This document shows positions 10,000 through 30,852 of a stretch of DNA of 43,655 nt, one piece after another; position 1 is the first letter of the stretch, and the number at the start of each line of letters is the position of its first letter. The notes below the pieces were generated by a model that was not told the DNA's origin, did not search any database, and saw only the letters and a list, made by a program, of their open reading frames with translations. A program made the position numbers and the translations under genes. Origin of the DNA: Myxococcales bacterium (GTDB taxonomy: Bacteria > Myxococcota_A > UBA9042); assembly GCA_023954815.1 (NCBI GenBank), contig JAGSHB010000028.1, forward strand, positions 1 to 43,655. The letters run 5' to 3'.

Positions 10000-12900
10000 A
10001 CGTGTCGGGCCCCGTCACCCCGAGCGTTGCCTTGCCCTGCCCCAACTCGGCACTGGGCGACGGCGCTGTTGCGCAAGCGCGCTTTCAACAATTATCGCTA
10101 AAATACGGTCGTTTTTTGATAATCTGCCTTTTTTGGGCGCTCGGAGGTTGCAGTTCCTCCGATGGCCTCTCGATCGGCGCGCGATGTGATTCCGACAGCC
10201 AATGCGAATCCGCCTTCTGTGAGACGGGGCCCTGGCGCCCGGCACTGTGCGCGTTCCCCAACGCTGACCTCGATGGCGACGAGCTCGATGCTGTCGCCGA
10301 ACGGGCGGCAGGCACAGACTCCCAACGCGCAGATACGGATGACGATGGCATCGCCGACAAAGTCGAGGTTGGAGACAACCCAGCCGCACCCAAAGACCGT
10401 GACGGAGATGGAAAACCGGACGCGCTTGAGCATGACTTCAAAGACAGTGATGGCGATTGTCTCGCCGACCCAGACGACCAATCCAATGACGTGCCCGCCA
10501 GCAAGGAGGCACTCGCAGCGATCTTCTGCAACATTGGTGTGTGCGCTGGACACGCCCCCCGCGCCACCTGTGAAGGGGTGATTGGCCAGGTGACCTGCGA
10601 GGTGATCGGCGTGCCAGACTACGAACCAGAGGGCGAACGCCGCTGTGACAAGCGCGACAATGACTGCGACGGCGAAACAGACGAGGGACTCGAAGGCCTG
10701 GCCGGCGCGGCCTGTGGTGCGAGCGGCGTCTGCGTAGGTGCGCCGACGTCCCGCTGCATCGGTGGCCAATGGATCTGCAACCTCAGTGGTATCGCCGACT
10801 ACGAGACGGTAGAAAAGAGCTGCGATGGGGTCGACAACGATTGTGATGGCAAGACCGACGAAGCGCCGCTGTGCGACGACGGACTCCCATGCACAATCGA
10901 CGCGTGTGTCGGCGGAAAAGGCTGCCAACACACGCCATCAGGCCAACGCTGCAACGACGGCAACCCGTGCACCATCGATCTCTGCGAACTACCAAACGGG
11001 TGCCGCTCCCTACCACACATCGGTACCTGCAATGATTCGAATCCCTGCACAACAGGAGAGAGTTGCAGCAACGGCGTGTGCGAAAACGGCACGGCGACGA
11101 TTTGCGACGACGGCAACTCCTGCACCCTGGACACATGCGCCAAGGACAGCGGCTGCATCGGCGTGGCCTTGTCTGAGGGAACGGCGTGCAAGCCCATCGA
11201 CGCCTGTGCCCAGGCCGGAACCTGCGTGGCCGGCAAGTGCAAGGGCCACAGCGCTGTCGTCTGCAACGATGACAATCCATGCACAGCGGATAGTTGTGAT
11301 AGCGAAGCAGGCGGGTGCGTACACCTTGCCAACGAAGGAGCGTGTAACGACGGCAACCCATGCACGGAAAATGACAGCTGCCTCGCCAAGTTGTGCATGG
11401 GCGTGCCGCTTCCGAGCTGTTGCACCGCAAATACCGACTGCAGTGACCAAAACCCCTGCACGCAGGACAGCTGCCTGGGCGGAGCCTGTAAGAATGCAGC
11501 TTCCGGTCTCGACGCGTGCGACGACGGCAATGTCTGCACCTCGGGAGAGGCGTGCGCTGATGGGCTGTGCGTCGGAGGTATCTGGGATGTCTGCGACGAT
11601 TCGGATGCCTGCACGCTCGATATCTGCGACAACAAGACGGCTGCGGCGAGCTGTACGCACGCGTCACTCCCGGACGGCGCCAACTGTGATGACGGCGATG
11701 TCTGCAACGGCTTTGGCGCTTGCGGGCAAGGCACCTGCAAAGTTGGGCTGGCCTTGGATTGCGACGACGGCAACCCTTGCACAAAGGACGTTTGTCACCC
11801 ACTTAAGGGCTGCACACATGCCGCACACAAGGGCGATTGCGACGATGGAAACGCGTGCACCATGGCTGATGTCTGCGCGTCAGGAGCCTGTGTAGGCGTG
11901 GCGCTACAATGCGGCGATCTCAATCCCTGTACCATCGACACCTGCAAGGTCGAACTCGGGTGTCAGTACTTGCCGGTTGCAGGCAGCTGTGACGACGGGA
12001 GCGCCTGCACAACGGGCGATGCGTGCTCCGAGGGAGCTTGCAAGGGGACCGACACGAACTGTGACGATGGAAAACCGTGCACAATCGATACTTGCTCAAA
12101 AATCGGTGTCTGTGAGCACGATGACAAACCCACAGAAGCCACCGGCTGCGATGACGGCAACGCTTGTACATTGGGCGATCTGTGTAAGTCCGGTGTGTGT
12201 TCTGCGGGCGTCTCAATCGACTGCCAGGACGGAAATACGTGCACCAACGACACCTGCGACAAGGTCTCGGGCCTGTGCAAATACACCTTTCGCACAGGCA
12301 GCTGCGTAACAGCGACCGGCTGCACATCGGACGCTTCGTGCAAGCTCGGCCTCTGCCAGGGCACACCCATCGCAAACTGCTGTAAACTCAACGGAAACTG
12401 CAACGACGGCAACCCATGCTCCATCGATAGCTGCGACAAATCCACAGGGCAATGCAGCCACGCGCCCGTCAGCGGGCTCGGGTGCGGAGACGGCTCCAAG
12501 TGCACTGTGGGCGATGTGTGTGTGGGCGGGTTGTGCAAGGGGGCCGCCTATTTGGGGTGCGATGACGACAAGCCATGTACGCTGGACTACTGCCTGAGCC
12601 AGACCGGATGCCATCACCTGTTGACGGTCACAGGCCTCTGCTCGGACGATGACCCCTGCAATGGCATCGAACACTGCAGCGTCGGCGGCTGTCTGCCCGG
12701 CGTCGCCCCCGACTGCGACGATGGAAAGCCGTGCACCCTGGATCTCTGTGAAAAGGCGAAGGGATGCGTGAGCGCATTCAAACAGCCCGGCACCAGCTGT
12801 GATGACGGATCGGGATGCACCACGACGGACCAATGCGATGGCCTCGGCACCTGTGTTGGCACGCCGACCAAGGGAGCCGGTTGCTGTACATCTGATGCGG

Positions 12901-13550
12901 CCTGCGACGATGGGTACGCCTGCACACTCGATAAATGCCTCACCGCATTGGCGCGCTGCACCCACACGCCCCTGACCTGCAACTCAAACCAACAATGTAC
13001 GGCGGGTTGGTGCGAAACAGGCAGCTGCAAGGCGGCAAGTCGCTGCTTGGCACCGGAGGTCTACGCCGAGAGCTTCGAACAAGACCAGACCCCGGGATGG
13101 TTGCTCTCCTCGGACGCCCCGCCTGTCAGCGCGACCGTGGCCTGGATACCGACCAAAGATGGAGCAGCGGTCGACGGCAGCCAAGTTCTGCACTGCCCGC
13201 TGGCGGCTGGCACATTCACAGCGCGCTTGCCGACCATGGCGCTAAGCGCTGGTGATTGGCGACTGAAAATGAACGTGAAACTCGACAAGGACGGCGCCGA
13301 TTGCACCCAGGGTGGCCTCTATGCCAAACGCGACGGAACGGCCCTGCCCGGCGGTACGCTGTGCAAGAGCAGCGGCGCAATGGTTGCCGTCGATCTGCCC
13401 TTGTCGGTGACGCACAACGGTGATGTGGTGGAGCTATCGATGGTGTGGGTCGGGGTGGCAGCCAAACCCACGACAACACGGGGTGTATGGATCGATGATG
13501 TGCGGATCGTCGCTGTGCCCGGCGGTTCAGGATGCGCATGCACCCCCTGA
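9996..13550 (+). CDS. Giant Cys/Asp-rich repeat lipoprotein, MopE/thrombospondin-3-like
   Basis: Up to 1184 residues. A hydrophobic segment ends in WALGGC (Cys52), a good lipobox; the GTG start at 9996 leaves an unusually long N-terminus, so a later start is possible though none has a good ribosome site. Residues about 90-165 hold Asp-rich calcium-loop repeats (DTDDDGIAD, DRDGDGKPD, DSDGDCLAD). Two MopE-type blocks follow (CDKRDNDCDGETDE and CDGVDNDCDGKTDE). Then about two dozen units of the form C-D-D-G-N-P-C-T-x-D-x-C run to about residue 990. The last 170 residues, starting VYAESFEQDQTPGW, resemble a beta-sandwich. Probably a calcium-stiffened, disulfide-bonded outer-surface stalk. Repeat content matches proteins of Myxococcota; function unknown. 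Confidence 0.85.
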   Translation: MNVSGPVTPSVALPCPNSALGDGAVAQARFQQLSLKYGRFLIICLFWALGGCSSSDGLSIGARCDSDSQCESAFCETGPWRPALCAFPNADLDGDELDAVAERAAGTDSQRADTDDDGIADKVEVGDNPAAPKDRDGDGKPDALEHDFKDSDGDCLADPDDQSNDVPASKEALAAIFCNIGVCAGHAPRATCEGVIGQVTCEVIGVPDYEPEGERRCDKRDNDCDGETDEGLEGLAGAACGASGVCVGAPTSRCIGGQWICNLSGIADYETVEKSCDGVDNDCDGKTDEAPLCDDGLPCTIDACVGGKGCQHTPSGQRCNDGNPCTIDLCELPNGCRSLPHIGTCNDSNPCTTGESCSNGVCENGTATICDDGNSCTLDTCAKDSGCIGVALSEGTACKPIDACAQAGTCVAGKCKGHSAVVCNDDNPCTADSCDSEAGGCVHLANEGACNDGNPCTENDSCLAKLCMGVPLPSCCTANTDCSDQNPCTQDSCLGGACKNAASGLDACDDGNVCTSGEACADGLCVGGIWDVCDDSDACTLDICDNKTAAASCTHASLPDGANCDDGDVCNGFGACGQGTCKVGLALDCDDGNPCTKDVCHPLKGCTHAAHKGDCDDGNACTMADVCASGACVGVALQCGDLNPCTIDTCKVELGCQYLPVAGSCDDGSACTTGDACSEGACKGTDTNCDDGKPCTIDTCSKIGVCEHDDKPTEATGCDDGNACTLGDLCKSGVCSAGVSIDCQDGNTCTNDTCDKVSGLCKYTFRTGSCVTATGCTSDASCKLGLCQGTPIANCCKLNGNCNDGNPCSIDSCDKSTGQCSHAPVSGLGCGDGSKCTVGDVCVGGLCKGAAYLGCDDDKPCTLDYCLSQTGCHHLLTVTGLCSDDDPCNGIEHCSVGGCLPGVAPDCDDGKPCTLDLCEKAKGCVSAFKQPGTSCDDGSGCTTTDQCDGLGTCVGTPTKGAGCCTSDAACDDGYACTLDKCLTALARCTHTPLTCNSNQQCTAGWCETGSCKAASRCLAPEVYAESFEQDQTPGWLLSSDAPPVSATVAWIPTKDGAAVDGSQVLHCPLAAGTFTARLPTMALSAGDWRLKMNVKLDKDGADCTQGGLYAKRDGTALPGGTLCKSSGAMVAVDLPLSVTHNGDVVELSMVWVGVAAKPTTTRGVWIDDVRIVAVPGGSGCACTP
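10867..12960 (+). repeat. Coding repeat array, about two dozen CDDGNPCTxDxC units
   Basis: Inside the large lipoprotein gene, units alternate between a form like CNDGNPCTIDLC followed by a Gly-Cys half (GCRSLP, GCIGVA, GCTHAA) and a form like CDDGNACTMADVC followed by GACVG or GLCVG. Unit length is mostly 19-24 codons. DNA words such as GACGACGGCAAC recur, but units have clearly diverged, so the array looks old rather than recently amplified. Confidence 0.85.
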
Positions 13551-25948: not shown

Positions 25949-26917
25949 TCAGCTCGGGCTCGCCATGAGGGCCTGCAGCTGATCGAGCGGTACGGTGTAC
26001 GTCGTTTTGCAGTAGTCGCACGTTGACTCCAACGGCTCACCACCATCGGCCAACTCTTGCAGATCGCTCTGCGGCAGTGTCGACAGCAGCGTGAGCACGC
26101 GCTCCGCTGAGCACGGGCAGAAAAAGCCCACGTCCTGCCGCGCAGCTTGATCCCAGTACAGACCACTCATCAGCGCGTTGGCCCAGCCCATAGCGTCTGG
26201 ATCGTCCGCGGTCATCCCGGTGCTCAGCTCGGGCAGCGTCTCGAGGTTGTTCACGAGGCAACCGAGATCTTCCTTGGTGCCCTCTGGCATCAGCTGCACC
26301 AGAAAACCCAGGGCATGCTCAACCGTACCTTCCGGGGTCACCTGCACATCGAGTCGCAGCAGGCTCAAGATCTGCTCACTCTCCATCAGGTAGCGCATCA
26401 ACAGCCCATCGATATCGTCGTGCTCCATGGTGATGGCGCTGCGATAGGTGGAACGCCCGGGCCGCGTACGGGCGACTTGCAGGGTGCCATTGCCGACCAA
26501 CAGCCCGTCATCCAGGGTCGCTTTGGGGTTGCGCACGGTTGCGCGCATGTGGCCTTCGGCGTAGCTATCGACGACAAAATTCCCCGCAGATCCAGCGTTT
26601 TTGCTGCCAAGCTGCAGCTGCTCGTCCGGGTTGAGACAGGCCCGCAGGAGCTGGGTGCCGGCCATGAGCTCACCCACCAGCTTGGCTGCCGCCGGACTAC
26701 AGCCAAGACGCTGCGTCGCTTGGTGCACCGCCTCAGTTGCGCGCACAACCAAGATACGAACCTCACCCTCACGCGTCAGCCCGCGCCAGAGCGTGTCTTC
26801 GGTGATCTCCGGCACGGTCGGCAAGGTCTGCGCGGGGGCAACTCGGCGCGCCTCACGAGCGAGCTTGTAGCGCTCAACAGGACTCAGATTGTCGGTATCG
26901 GTGATTGGGTCGGCCAT
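25949..26917 (-). CDS. hslO: Redox-regulated chaperone Hsp33
   Basis: 322 residues from ATG at 26917 (GGAGA upstream). The C-terminal zinc switch is intact: Cys267 and Cys269 in FFCPCS and Cys300 and Cys303 in CDYC. The core shows VGELMAGTQLLRACL and NGTLQVARTRPGRSTYRS, typical of the substrate-binding domain. Hsp33 loses zinc and becomes an active holdase on oxidative plus heat stress. It converges on the glutaredoxin gene with 21 bases between stops, so three redox genes sit together. Its upstream region holds one copy of the structured intergenic element. Confidence 0.92.
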   Translation of the reverse strand: MADPITDTDNLSPVERYKLAREARRVAPAQTLPTVPEITEDTLWRGLTREGEVRILVVRATEAVHQATQRLGCSPAAAKLVGELMAGTQLLRACLNPDEQLQLGSKNAGSAGNFVVDSYAEGHMRATVRNPKATLDDGLLVGNGTLQVARTRPGRSTYRSAITMEHDDIDGLLMRYLMESEQILSLLRLDVQVTPEGTVEHALGFLVQLMPEGTKEDLGCLVNNLETLPELSTGMTADDPDAMGWANALMSGLYWDQAARQDVGFFCPCSAERVLTLLSTLPQSDLQELADGGEPLESTCDYCKTTYTVPLDQLQALMASPS

Positions 26918-27029: not shown

Positions 27030-27115
27030 CTAGCAGCGTGCGGCGTAATTAAAATTACTGTCGCAGCACGCTGCTAGTTTTCTTTTCTATTGGGGGGGGC
27101 TAACAGCGCCCCCAG
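27030..27115 (-). repeat. Structured intergenic element, copy 1
   Basis: A long hairpin has perfect arms TAGCAGCGTGC (27031-27041) and GCACGCTGCTA (27066-27076), with an inner palindrome GTAATT/AATTAC (27045-27050, 27053-27058). On the plus strand a pyrimidine tract TTTTCTTTTCTATT (27078-27091) follows, then a short G/C hairpin to 27115. Read on the minus strand (the direction of both flanking genes) the order is G/C hairpin, A-rich linker GAAAAGAAAA, long hairpin, hslO. The element is nearly the same as the copy at 29062 and lies in the same orientation. The rest of the 287-base gap to the ATPase stop shows no gene. Confidence 0.85.
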
Positions 27116-27204
27116 TCACGGCGAGCCGCGACTTCCCCATCCGAGCAGACAGCGCCCCATGGGGTGCGTCTCCAAAAAAACGAGGAAAAGCGCAGTCTGC
27201 TAGG

Positions 27205-29016
27205 CTAGAAAGCAGAATCGACCGTGACGCGCAGCACCTCGTCGAAGGAGGTCAATCCTAGGGCGAGCTTCTTGATCGAGGCTTGCCGTAACGTCAACAT
27301 CCCATCGCGCTGGGCCTGCCGCCCAAGCTCTCCAGCGTCGGCCCCATCGATGATCGCGCGCTTGAGTTTTTCGTTGCTGGTCATCACTTCGAACACACCG
27401 AGGCGACCCTTGAGACCGATGCCGCGGCAACGCGCACAACCAGCCCCGTGATAGACCGGGAACGTCTCGCCCTTGCGCAGCTCCAAGCCCAGCGCCGCGG
27501 CCTGTTCGACCGAAAGCTGCGCCTCTTCGCGACAATGTAGGCACACCTTCCGCAGCAGGCGCTGGGCGACCACCCCGACGAGCGTCGTGGCCAACATGAA
27601 CGGCTCAGCACCCAGATCGAGCATCCGACCAATGGTTGATGGGGCGTCGTTGGTGTGCACCGTCGCGAGGACGAGGTGTCCCGTCAGCGCGGCTTGAATC
27701 GCGTTGCGCGCCGTCTCGGTGTCGCGCACCTCGCCCACCATGATCACGTCGGGATCTTGGCGTAGCAGCGTGCGCAGCAGTGAGTCGAAGGTCAGGCCCA
27801 ACCGCGGGTTGACAGCCGTCTGGTTGAACTGCTCGACGACCATCTCGATGGGATCTTCAATGGTACAGACGTTGACCGTGGGCGAGGCGATCGCCCGGAG
27901 CGCCGAGTAGAGCGTCGTCGTCTTACCGCTGCCGGTCGGGCCGGTGACCAGAATCAGGCCGTTGGGCCGGCGAATAAAGGAGCGAAACTGCTCCAGCTCC
28001 CCAGCAAAGAGACCGAGCTGATCGATGTCCTGGAACAGCACTTGCGGATCGAAGAAGCGAATCACCGCCTTTTCGCCAAAAGCCGTCGGCATGGTCGAGA
28101 TACGCAGCTCCACCTCGACATCATTGTGCGCGAGCTTGATCCGACCATCCTGCGGGCGGCGCTTTTCTGCGATATCGAGACGCGCGAGGGTCTTGATCCG
28201 GGAGACGACCGCCTTGTGGACGACCCGCGGTAGCTCCTGGACCTTGTGCAGCACACCGTCGATCCGCAGCCGCACGTGGCTCACCTCGCGCTTGGGCTCG
28301 ATGTGCAGATCGGACGCGCGTTGATCCAGGGCGTACTTGAGCAGGAACTCGACCGCGTGAACCACGTGGCGATCGTCACTGTCGACCCCCTGACGCCCGG
28401 CTGACAGGCGAACGAGCTGCTCGAGGTTGCCAAAGTCCGTGCCACCATCGCTGAGCTCGGCGACGGCACCTTTAACGGACGCACGAAACCGGAACACCTC
28501 ATCCAAGACACGCTGAATATCAGAGGCTTGGGCAACGACGACATCGACGGGACACTTGGCGCGCGTCGCCATGGTCGCGATGACCTCTTGATCGAAGGGG
28601 TTTTCCATCGCCAAGACGAGGTGACCGTTTTCAAACCCCAGCGGCAGGACCCGATTGCGGCGCGCAAAGGCAAAACTGACGGCGCTGGTCACGGTCTGCG
28701 GGTCGATGCGCAGGGGATCGATGTTGACGAACCCGACCCCTGCCCGCTCAGCGACAGCCTGCTGAATTCGGGCTTCCGTGATCTGCCCACGCCCACGGGC
28801 CGGCAGGCGAAAACTGGCGATCACCTCTGGCCAGGTCACGGGAACGTCGGAGCGGCCGTCCTTTTCCCGCTCGCGCTCGAGCCGCTTGCGTTGCCCAACG
28901 GCCTTCATACGCACATCGGCCACGCGAGGCGCCTCGAGCACAGCGGCTTGCACGAGCAGTTCGAGCAGCGTGTCGAGATTCAGCGGTGGGTTGGCGCGCG
29001 GGGTCTCTCGGCTCAA
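27205..29016 (-). CDS. Type IV pilus / type II secretion assembly ATPase (PilB/GspE family)
   Basis: 603 residues. An MshEN-like N-terminal domain lies at about 76-175. The ATPase domain has Walker A GPTGSGKTTT (359-368), the Asp box TIEDPIE, Walker B in DPDVIMVGEVRDTETA, the His box LVLATVHTNDAPS and, near the end, the zinc Cys pairs CLHC and CARC. These hexamers power pilus extension or pseudopilus assembly at the inner membrane. The Cys tetrad and MshEN region point to PilB/GspE/MshE rather than PilT. The start is TTG at 29016 without a strong ribosome site. No other pilus or secretion gene adjoins it; a pilin gene lies 13 kb away. Confidence 0.9.
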   Translation of the reverse strand: MSRETPRANPPLNLDTLLELLVQAAVLEAPRVADVRMKAVGQRKRLEREREKDGRSDVPVTWPEVIASFRLPARGRGQITEARIQQAVAERAGVGFVNIDPLRIDPQTVTSAVSFAFARRNRVLPLGFENGHLVLAMENPFDQEVIATMATRAKCPVDVVVAQASDIQRVLDEVFRFRASVKGAVAELSDGGTDFGNLEQLVRLSAGRQGVDSDDRHVVHAVEFLLKYALDQRASDLHIEPKREVSHVRLRIDGVLHKVQELPRVVHKAVVSRIKTLARLDIAEKRRPQDGRIKLAHNDVEVELRISTMPTAFGEKAVIRFFDPQVLFQDIDQLGLFAGELEQFRSFIRRPNGLILVTGPTGSGKTTTLYSALRAIASPTVNVCTIEDPIEMVVEQFNQTAVNPRLGLTFDSLLRTLLRQDPDVIMVGEVRDTETARNAIQAALTGHLVLATVHTNDAPSTIGRMLDLGAEPFMLATTLVGVVAQRLLRKVCLHCREEAQLSVEQAAALGLELRKGETFPVYHGAGCARCRGIGLKGRLGVFEVMTSNEKLKRAIIDGADAGELGRQAQRDGMLTLRQASIKKLALGLTSFDEVLRVTVDSAF

Positions 29017-29061
29017 GCGTCAGATCCGAAGCAGAAGGGACGGCATCGTCCGCTTGCTATC

Positions 29062-29143
29062 TTAGCAGTGTGCGGCGTAATTGAAATTACTGTCGCAGCA
29101 CACTGCTACTTTTCTTTTCTATTTGGGGACTAGAGCGCCCCAG
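29062..29143 (-). repeat. Structured intergenic element, copy 2
   Basis: Arms TAGCAGTGTGC (29063-29073) and GCACACTGCTA (29098-29108), inner palindrome GTAATT/AATTAC (29077-29082, 29085-29090), pyrimidine tract CTTTTCTTTTCTATTT, then a short hairpin TGGGG/CCCCA (29124-29128, 29138-29142). Over about 62 bases it differs from copy 1 at four places, two of which form one compensatory pair (C27037-G27070 versus T29069-A29102). It lies 46 bases upstream of the ATPase start and just after the ttcA stop. Confidence 0.85.
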
Positions 29144-29167
29144 CTGCGGCAGACACAACCGTCGAAC

Positions 29168-30079
29168 TCAGGAAAATGCGTCGAGCTGATCGTCAGCGGT
29201 GTCTGTGAGCCGTGTGTTGAAGTCGAACTGCTTGCGATCGAGGAGAAATCGCGGATGCAGGTTCTTCATCGCGTTGAGCGCGCTCGGCAGGGCACCTGGG
29301 TAGACATCGTCAATCTGCCCCAGCAACTGCTCCATTTGGGCGCGCTTGAGATCTTCCTGGCGGCTGCACAACGAGCACGGAATCAACGGCCACGGCTGAT
29401 GACCGGCGTAGGCGATGATCATCTTCTCGGGCACGTAGGACAGCGGCCGAATCAGCACATTTGCCCCGTCATCACTCATCAATTTTGCTGGCATCGCTTT
29501 GAGCTGACCGCAGAAGAAGAAGTTCAGCATGAACGTCGCCAGGATGTCGTCACGATGGTGACCGAGCGCGACCTTGGTGCACCCGAGACGCTTCGCAGCG
29601 CTGTACAAAATGCCCCGGCGCAACCGGCTACAAAGCGAGCAGGTCGTCTTGCCTGGCTCCAGCTTGCTGAGCACAACGTCGTAGGTGTGCTCGTGGATGA
29701 TCTCGTAGGGAGAGCCGCAGTTCTTGAGGTAATTCTCGAGGGTATCGAGCGGAAAGCCGGGGTGACCCTGATCGAGGTGCACCGCCACAATCTCAAAGTT
29801 GAACGGCGCACGGCGCTGAGCGCGCTGCAAGAAGTGAAGCAGTGCGTAGCTGTCTTTACCGCCCGACATGCAGACCATGACCTTGTCGCCCTCTTCGAGC
29901 ATGTCGTAGTCGTGGGTGGCCTTGGTGACCAGATACGCGATGCGCTTTTCGAGCTTTGCCGGGTCGTCCGGGATCTTCATCCGGAGCGGGGCGGCAGGCG
30001 CAGCGCCACTTTCGAGCTGACCCAACGCCAGTTTTGGAGCGGTTGGCGCGGAAGGTATTACGGGCAGGCTGGTGGTCAC
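29168..30079 (-). CDS. ttcA: tRNA 2-thiocytidine(32) synthetase
   Basis: 303 residues from GTG at 30079, chosen because GGAG lies six bases upstream; a GTG at 30136 has none. The PP-loop SGGKDS (72-77) binds ATP, and two CxxC pairs, CSLC at 147-150 and again at 235-238, match the cluster-binding cysteines of TtcA. GHHRDDILATFMLN is the family's conserved HHxDD region. The enzyme adds sulfur to C32 of some tRNAs. The first 30 residues are a Pro/Ala-rich extension. The 246 bases between this gene and the H1-like gene show no further feature. Confidence 0.9.
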   Translation of the reverse strand: MTTSLPVIPSAPTAPKLALGQLESGAAPAAPLRMKIPDDPAKLEKRIAYLVTKATHDYDMLEEGDKVMVCMSGGKDSYALLHFLQRAQRRAPFNFEIVAVHLDQGHPGFPLDTLENYLKNCGSPYEIIHEHTYDVVLSKLEPGKTTCSLCSRLRRGILYSAAKRLGCTKVALGHHRDDILATFMLNFFFCGQLKAMPAKLMSDDGANVLIRPLSYVPEKMIIAYAGHQPWPLIPCSLCSRQEDLKRAQMEQLLGQIDDVYPGALPSALNAMKNLHPRFLLDRKQFDFNTRLTDTADDQLDAFS

Positions 30080-30325
30080 GACGCTCTCCGCGTTTGAGGG
30101 GTCACACAGGCGCGGCGACCGAATGGCTGTGCGCACGAGTGGGCAAGCCAGCGCGCGGCGGCGGTGTTCCTACCAGAGCGTGCGTGGGACAACAACGCAA
30201 AAATAGACGCAGCGCCGCGGTCATAGGACATCAGCGAAGCAATCATGGGACAGGCGGACCCTGCGAAAGGGCGCGGATCCGACTAGCGTAGGTCGTGCCG
30301 CCCAAAGAGCGGCAACGCGGATGGA

Positions 30326-30697
30326 CTACTTCTTGGCAGGGGCCTTTTTCGCCGGTGCCTTCTTGGCAGGTGCAGCCTTCTTTGCAGGCGCAGCTTCCTT
30401 CGCCGGGGCGGCCTTTGCTGGCGCGGCCTTCGCTGGTGCTGCCTTCGCTGGCGCCTTGGCAGCGGGGGCGGCGGCGGCGGCGGGCGCAGCGAGCGCTGAG
30501 ACGACGGCGCTACTGTCACCAGCGACGCCATCAAGCGCACCGGAGATGGCCTTCAGAGCGGCAGCATCGTAGGACGCGCCCTTGTCGACACCGGCGGCGG
30601 CCAGGACCTCCGACGCGATGGTGCGAGCGCTGGCATAGTCCCAACGCTTCTCGAATGCGAGGATCAGATCGGCGTGGCTGGTTCCGGTAGCGGCCAT
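30326..30697 (-). CDS. H1-like protein with Ala/Lys/Pro repeat tail
   Basis: 123 residues from ATG at 30697 with AAGGAG seven bases upstream; the longer frame to 30805 lacks this. Residues 1-68 form a small helical domain (HADLILAFEKRWDYASARTI, then AGVDKGASYDAAALKAI). The rest is a run of KAAPA and KKAPA pentapeptides like the tails of bacterial histone H1-type proteins (AlgP, Hc1). Such tails bind DNA by charge. The globular part I do not recognise. Repeated GCC/GCT-rich DNA underlies the tail, so its length may vary between strains. Confidence 0.75.
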   Translation of the reverse strand: MAATGTSHADLILAFEKRWDYASARTIASEVLAAAGVDKGASYDAAALKAISGALDGVAGDSSAVVSALAAPAAAAAPAAKAPAKAAPAKAAPAKAAPAKEAAPAKKAAPAKKAPAKKAPAKK

Positions 30698-30852
30698 AGC
30701 AAGCTCCTTCGAGATATGTTCGTTGGTGAGCGGTGTCCCAACAGTGTAGCGAATCGTGTCGCCGCAAATGTACGACCAGACGATCCCGGCGGCAAGTTTG
30801 CCCACAGTCCACCACTTTGCGGGTAGTTGTGAGGGGGCTCACCGGTCCCAAA

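Follow-up and report, generated by a model that had tools for sequence, protein, structure and literature searches.

The window, that is, the whole 43,655-nucleotide stretch of DNA that we analyzed, carries adjacent genes for the Hsp33-type chaperone HslO, a PilB/GspE-like ATPase of type IV pilus assembly and TtcA, and each of the two gaps between these genes holds a copy of a hairpin-forming repeat (Table 1). The copies, at 27030 and 29062, lie on the same strand, as had been noticed in an earlier sequence-only reading, and with 92% identity over 66 nt they form the strongest direct repeat of such kind in the window. Two differences described in that reading were found as given: a change of both stem partners in the first hairpin, hp1 (C27037-G27070 to T29069-A29102 in the second copy), and a change in its loop (A27051 to G29083). 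The accompanying claim that pairing is preserved holds for the first of these. However, the outermost hp1 pair, C27030-G27077, is both altered and unpaired in the second copy (T29062.C29109), which the reading did not mention.

The repeat had been taken to span about 85 bp, but this covered only the first half of the full element, 27030-27203. The end of this element is one base off the ATPase stop codon, which sits within a CTAG. Single-strand folding of the complete copy gave z = -4.4 as RNA and -5.1 as DNA. The second copy matched a covariance model over 29062-29166 (69.6 bits); its 3' half is gone after hp2 and the copy ends at about 29143.

Two further features of the window were observed. 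Positions 10872-12930 contain many imperfect direct repeats of ~54/32 nt with the pattern TGCGACGACGGCAACCCxTGCACC; their translation would be a cysteine-rich repeat, CDDGNPCT. Positions 30326-30805 on the minus strand encode a small histone-H1-like protein with an Ala/Lys/Pro-rich tail (PAKKAAPAKK).

Table 1. Features of the hslO-ATPase-ttcA region (window coordinates)
Feature	Position	Strand	Description or basis
HslO gene, Hsp33-type chaperone	25949..26917	-	Flanking gene
Full-length mobile repeat, 174 bp	27030..27203	+	Between the hslO start side and the gspE/pilB-like stop codon; aligned copies have sharp borders and unrelated flanks
hp1	27030..27077	+	CTAG-capped palindrome, 48 nt, CTAG at both feet
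T-rich tract, TTTTCTTTTCTATT	27078..27091	+	Sequence; orientation bias at stop codons
hp2	27092..27113	+	G-run/C-run hairpin
hp3, AGTCACGGCGAGCCGCGACT	27114..27133	+	Strong covariation across species and genera
Conserved TTCCCCA after hp3	27133..27139	+	
hp4, terminal hairpin, AGCAGACAGCGC ... GCGCAGTCTGCTAG	27144..27203	+	Degenerate hp1
PilB/GspE-like type IV pilus assembly ATPase gene	27205..29016	-	Flanking gene
Truncated older copy	29062..29143	+	hp1 (29062-29109), T-tract, hp2 and a remnant of hp3; located in the gap from the ttcA stop to the ATPase start
TtcA gene	29168..30136	-	Flanking gene

Architecture of the element

When genome copies were aligned together with their flanks, a unit of ~172 bp with sharp borders (CTAGCAGCGTGCG ... 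CGCAGTCTGCTAG) emerged, in which hp1, the T-rich tract, hp2, hp3, CTTCCCCATCCC, the terminal hairpin and CTAG follow one another. hp1 consists of a 12-bp outer stem, a mismatch and an inner stem with a one-sided bulge, and together with the T-rich tract it resembles an intrinsic terminator on the plus strand. A stretch, CTTCCCCA, lies 3' of hp3 and before the degenerate terminal hairpin. The CCCC of TTCCCCA is predicted by RNA folding to pair with the first Gs of hp2, which would make a three-way junction. Terminal inverted repeats (CTAGCAGNNTGCG) are present at both ends, the end of hp4 being the inverted partner of the 5' end of the element, and they are perfect over 13 bp in most copies of the congener G002. 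Where units are repeated in tandem, with a period of about 112 bp, the terminal hairpin can be recognized as a decayed hp1, and solo hp1 copies are present both in the genome of the window (G000) and in G002. The latter also has subfamilies of 160 bp and of 242 bp, the longer with an 83-bp insert in hp2.

Copy number and distribution

The genome of the window (6.44 Mb, 314 contigs) contained at least 41 BLAST matches. A covariance search, proposed with the sequence-only reading as a check for copies elsewhere, found them far beyond chance: the model, R1, matched 136 times in this genome and 114 times in G002, both figures being upper estimates of copies, as some matches are weak and some are opposite-strand matches of the palindromic hp1. 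Another congener, G003, had 1-2 matches, one of them with R1, and the R1 search of a third, G001 (67% complete), gave none. Across the class, G009 was the sole further genome matched, and most of the class is without the element. When GTDB species genomes were scanned for an exact pattern, 42 contigs were detected, all from one MAG (5_bin.26), which carries G002-type copies. Some copies in G002 are 99% identical to the consensus, and such near-identity indicates recent, species-specific amplification; subfamily bursts have occurred in two species.

A scan of IMG/VR for two core patterns found none. In Rfam, the window had no match at the gathering score and five loci had no meaningful match (E up to 1). 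BLAST matches in other members of the phylum (L055-L058) were short and coincidental. In G003, the 1-2 isolated three-hairpin copies (L212, L258) lack CTAG and are followed by CCCCACCGCGTACGGGCTCCGCCCTTTTT. Over 3.7 kb compared, only the repeat is common to the window and a contig of a related MAG (L072, JAUIAC010000015.1).

Insertion sites and gene context

CTAG is found at both ends in 47 of the 77 full copies tabulated, the borders are sharp and the flanks of different copies are unrelated. In 35 of 66 copies with usable flanks, an end CTAG provides the stop codon of the adjacent gene. These stop-fused copies have the gene on the side of hp1 and the T-tract in 27 cases versus 8 on the other side (two-sided binomial p = 0.0019). 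In G002, stop-codon CTAGs account for 21 of 40 insertions versus 18 of 62 background CTAG sites (p = 0.02). We detected no copy that clearly splits a reading frame, although L102 gave a hint of one joined ORF.

Element-free orthologous loci have native stop codons. At L083, G002 has CTAG-element-CTAG, whereas the element-free ortholog in G003 has a single TAG; the L106 site is element-free in G001, where it reads GTAG, and the L090 site is element-free in G003. In G000, the same stop codon of the L106 site still bears a decayed hp1; some of the insertions are thus ancient and have been inherited. In G002, the gspE-hslO gap holds a copy joined to the stop codon of the ATPase gene, with an orientation opposite to that of the window's copy, which points to either independent use of one landing place or an inversion.

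The target-site pattern is thus CTAG on both sides of the element and a single (C)TAG in empty sites. It should be noted, however, that many copies have unequal tetranucleotides. Two copies have equal ends other than CTAG (ATAG/ATAG and CTAT/CTAT), which resemble a target duplication, but five are of the type TTAG...CTAG with no TTAG/TTAG, which do not. The tetranucleotide is altered at the 5' end only in 17 copies versus the 3' end only in 7.

Three roles had been offered for the repeat: a leader RNA, a protein-binding site or a miniature mobile element. A leader RNA acting in cis on the ATPase gene and hslO would agree with the window, where both copies precede these genes in a like arrangement. 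However, genome-wide the copies occur in both orientations and in all gap types (21 convergent, 25 tandem, 10 divergent), mostly behind gene ends; hp1 faces a gene end in 37 of 56 cases and a gene start in 19, these counts being approximate as they come from a crude simple gene caller, with a weak gene-call background for G000. The consistent position upstream of starts therefore does not extend to the genome, where gene ends are favored, and, with no Rfam match either, a leader RNA is very improbable. The dispersal, unrelated flanks, CTAG ends and single (C)TAG in empty sites indicate a mobile element instead, so that the miniature mobile element was the right option among the three. We conclude, with a probability of about 0.85, that the repeat is a non-autonomous mobile element landing on CTAG.

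Pairing of the hairpin arms

Among 36 copies drawn from the two species, pairing is seen in 95% of cells and six pairs show double changes; none of 500 shuffles reached this pairing score. Preserved pairing, as claimed in the earlier reading, is right for the family as a whole. Within the window's genome alone, 51 distinct hp1 arm pairs were found, with pairing far better than in shuffled arms. At hp1 positions 5-9, 223 of 255 cells are paired versus 185 expected (maximum 200 in 20,000 shuffles), the exact excess being uncertain since shuffling leaves the kinship of the copies in place and the model had guided the alignment. In older copies, CTAG and TGC..GCA are unchanged but enclose other arms, e.g., GTAGG/CCTAC or CGACG/CGTCG. 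In hp3, the whole stem differs among G000, G002 and G009 yet remains paired (a 5-bp stem was demanded for extraction, and unpaired hp3 was therefore uncountable). At the family level, pairing is strongly conserved while the letters change. The lone C-G to T-A change between the two window copies is weak evidence by itself, because many sister copies have a C.A mismatch at that pair, which is commoner there than T-A.

The earlier reading went from change under preserved pairing to selection on the structure, but paired changes may also arise without selection, by template switching between hairpin arms in replication (quasipalindrome correction). This is a known route to paired changes and a process that creates and maintains hairpins (PMC8794818). 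It would account for paired changes within single copies, e.g., GTAGG/CCTAC and CTAT/ATAG, and for the many one-sided C.A intermediates at C27037-G27070, and for single-copy changes it is a serious rival. However, the hp3 arms differ across species and genera while the AG..CT closing is fixed and TTCCCC stays adjacent, and the hp2/hp3 spacing is kept; homogenization of arms alone does not account for these features. As the source of the paired changes in place of selection, we consider template switching possible, at well below even odds.

The core in another genus

A second covariance model, R2, was run on G009, which belongs to a different genus of the same family, and gave 22 matches. Eight of them are a 172-bp MITE with inverted ends GGGCGCGGTTC (L229-L233, L235, L240 and L242), flanked by 9-bp duplications that are exact in seven copies and offset by one base in the other. 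The middle of this MITE consists of the T-tract, hp2, hp3 and CTTCCCCAC. The other G009 copies, and one in G003, lie outside the MITE and run on into CTTCCCCACYGCGTRCGG and a further hairpin. Thus, the core is common to different mobile chassis, namely CTAG-bounded hairpin elements in one genus and a MITE with 9-bp duplications in another. A tentative and, taken as a whole, rather unlikely extension would be to regard the hp2-hp3-CTTCCCCA core as a folded, modular device, adopted by at least two unrelated mobile chassis and also standing alone, and to suppose that what spreads is this structured core rather than a single transposon family, and that the CTAG elements are moved by a shape-reading enzyme which leaves a hypervariable paired 5-bp stretch in each copy.

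Comparison with known elements

The repeat shares with REP, BIME and REPIN sequences the form of short, dispersed, extragenic palindromes with imperfect hairpins, which occur near gene ends as singles, doublets and tandem arrays; its copy number is likewise high (>100, by the 136 and 114 model matches). However, in known REPs one end of the palindrome bears an unpaired tetranucleotide, GTAG or CGTC (PMC3733652), whereas our element has neither tag and its CTAG is paired at both feet. It also has the additional hp2-hp3 core, and none of the RAYT (Y1) genes examined is flanked by it. Palindromic elements derived from IS200/IS605 are similar in that a hairpin lies close to each end and the insertion point is marked by a tetranucleotide, but the ends of the present element are inverted repeats of each other and no TnpA is linked to it. 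The resemblance to MITEs, e.g., of IS5 type, includes small size, absence of coding sequence, sharp borders, unrelated flanks, terminal inverted repeats, the CTAG target and near-identical bursts. Unlike MITEs, it has hairpin-capped ends and hypervariable paired arms, its target duplication is not fully consistent, and no parental IS was found among DDE_Tnp_1 genes. Finally, a GC hairpin that immediately succeeds a stop codon and leads into a T-rich tract, the sequence form of a putative intrinsic (Rho-independent) terminator, is present in 27 of the 35 stop-fused copies; here, unlike in intrinsic terminators, it is delivered within a mobile repeat and the T-tract is broken by a C.

Candidate mobilizing enzymes and a model

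No autonomous element or transposase with the ends of this repeat was found among the Y1 and DDE_Tnp_1 genes examined. Lone CTAGCAGNNTGCG matches were considered as ends of an autonomous element and on reading proved to be decayed copies, solo hp1 or chance matches.

One candidate is an HUH/Y1 enzyme of an IS200- or REP-like single-strand element, which would recognize the CTAG-footed hairpins and cut at CTAG. We place it just short of an even chance. The hairpins with a one-sided bulge at both ends, solo hp1 copies and head-to-tail arrays, hypervariable yet paired arms, the 5' tetranucleotide being more variable than the 3' one and the many Y1 genes in the genome all argue for it, and conservation of the hairpins would be compatible with Y1 single-strand mobilization. 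On the other hand, the 14 Y1 genes of the window's genome have other repeats or none, never this element, the 10 Y1 loci in G002 and G003 are also without it, and the unpaired tag of known REPs is absent. These Y1 genes (L039-L052 in the window's genome, and L112-L121) encode ~330-400 aa, and most carry inverted TGCCAGGCGTTTCG-type repeats of their own on their flanks, which form a distinct REP-like family.

Alternatively, the repeat might be a MITE of an IS5-like DDE insertion sequence, with terminal inverted repeats CAGNNTGCG, a 4-bp CTAG duplication and the hairpins as passengers. There is precedent in IS5, which most often duplicates CTAG (PMC5493358). The inverted ends, the doubling of CTAG relative to empty sites, the two copies with equal non-CTAG tetranucleotides and the location of the related G009 core in a MITE with 9-bp duplications are in line with such an origin. 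However, the DDE_Tnp_1 loci had no matching ends, and TTAG/CTAG ends occur five times versus none for TTAG/TTAG. In addition, the five bases internal to the 5' CTAG are highly variable among copies and still pair with the other arm of hp1, which is unexpected for an inverted repeat read by sequence. A DDE origin is possible but doubtful, and an enzyme that is neither HUH/Y1 nor DDE is plainly unlikely.

Whichever enzyme is involved, the mobile element landing on CTAG can be pictured as a hairpin-capped miniature repeat that would copy itself around the genome, moved in trans. Insertion at CTAG, often at the C-TAG of a stop codon, would leave CTAG on both sides. The enzyme probably handles folded ends, so that the arms could stay paired while their letters drift. 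An insertion at a stop codon would leave the protein undamaged, and where the orientation is the commoner one, hp1 and the T-tract could terminate transcription of that gene; such copies might therefore be tolerated or kept. From the orientation bias and the T-tract, transcription termination behind genes would be the most likely local effect; a simple terminator scan did not list hp1, whose loop exceeds the limit of the scan.

These findings add a genus-level family of mobile palindromes outside the two described REP tag classes. The dozens of paired-arm variants within one genome raise the question of whether template switching could be separated from selection, and reuse of the folded core in a different, MITE-type chassis raises the question of whether RNA or DNA structure is of advantage to miniature elements. 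For the host, CTAG stop codons would be safe landing sites, and the element may give its genes ready-made terminators.
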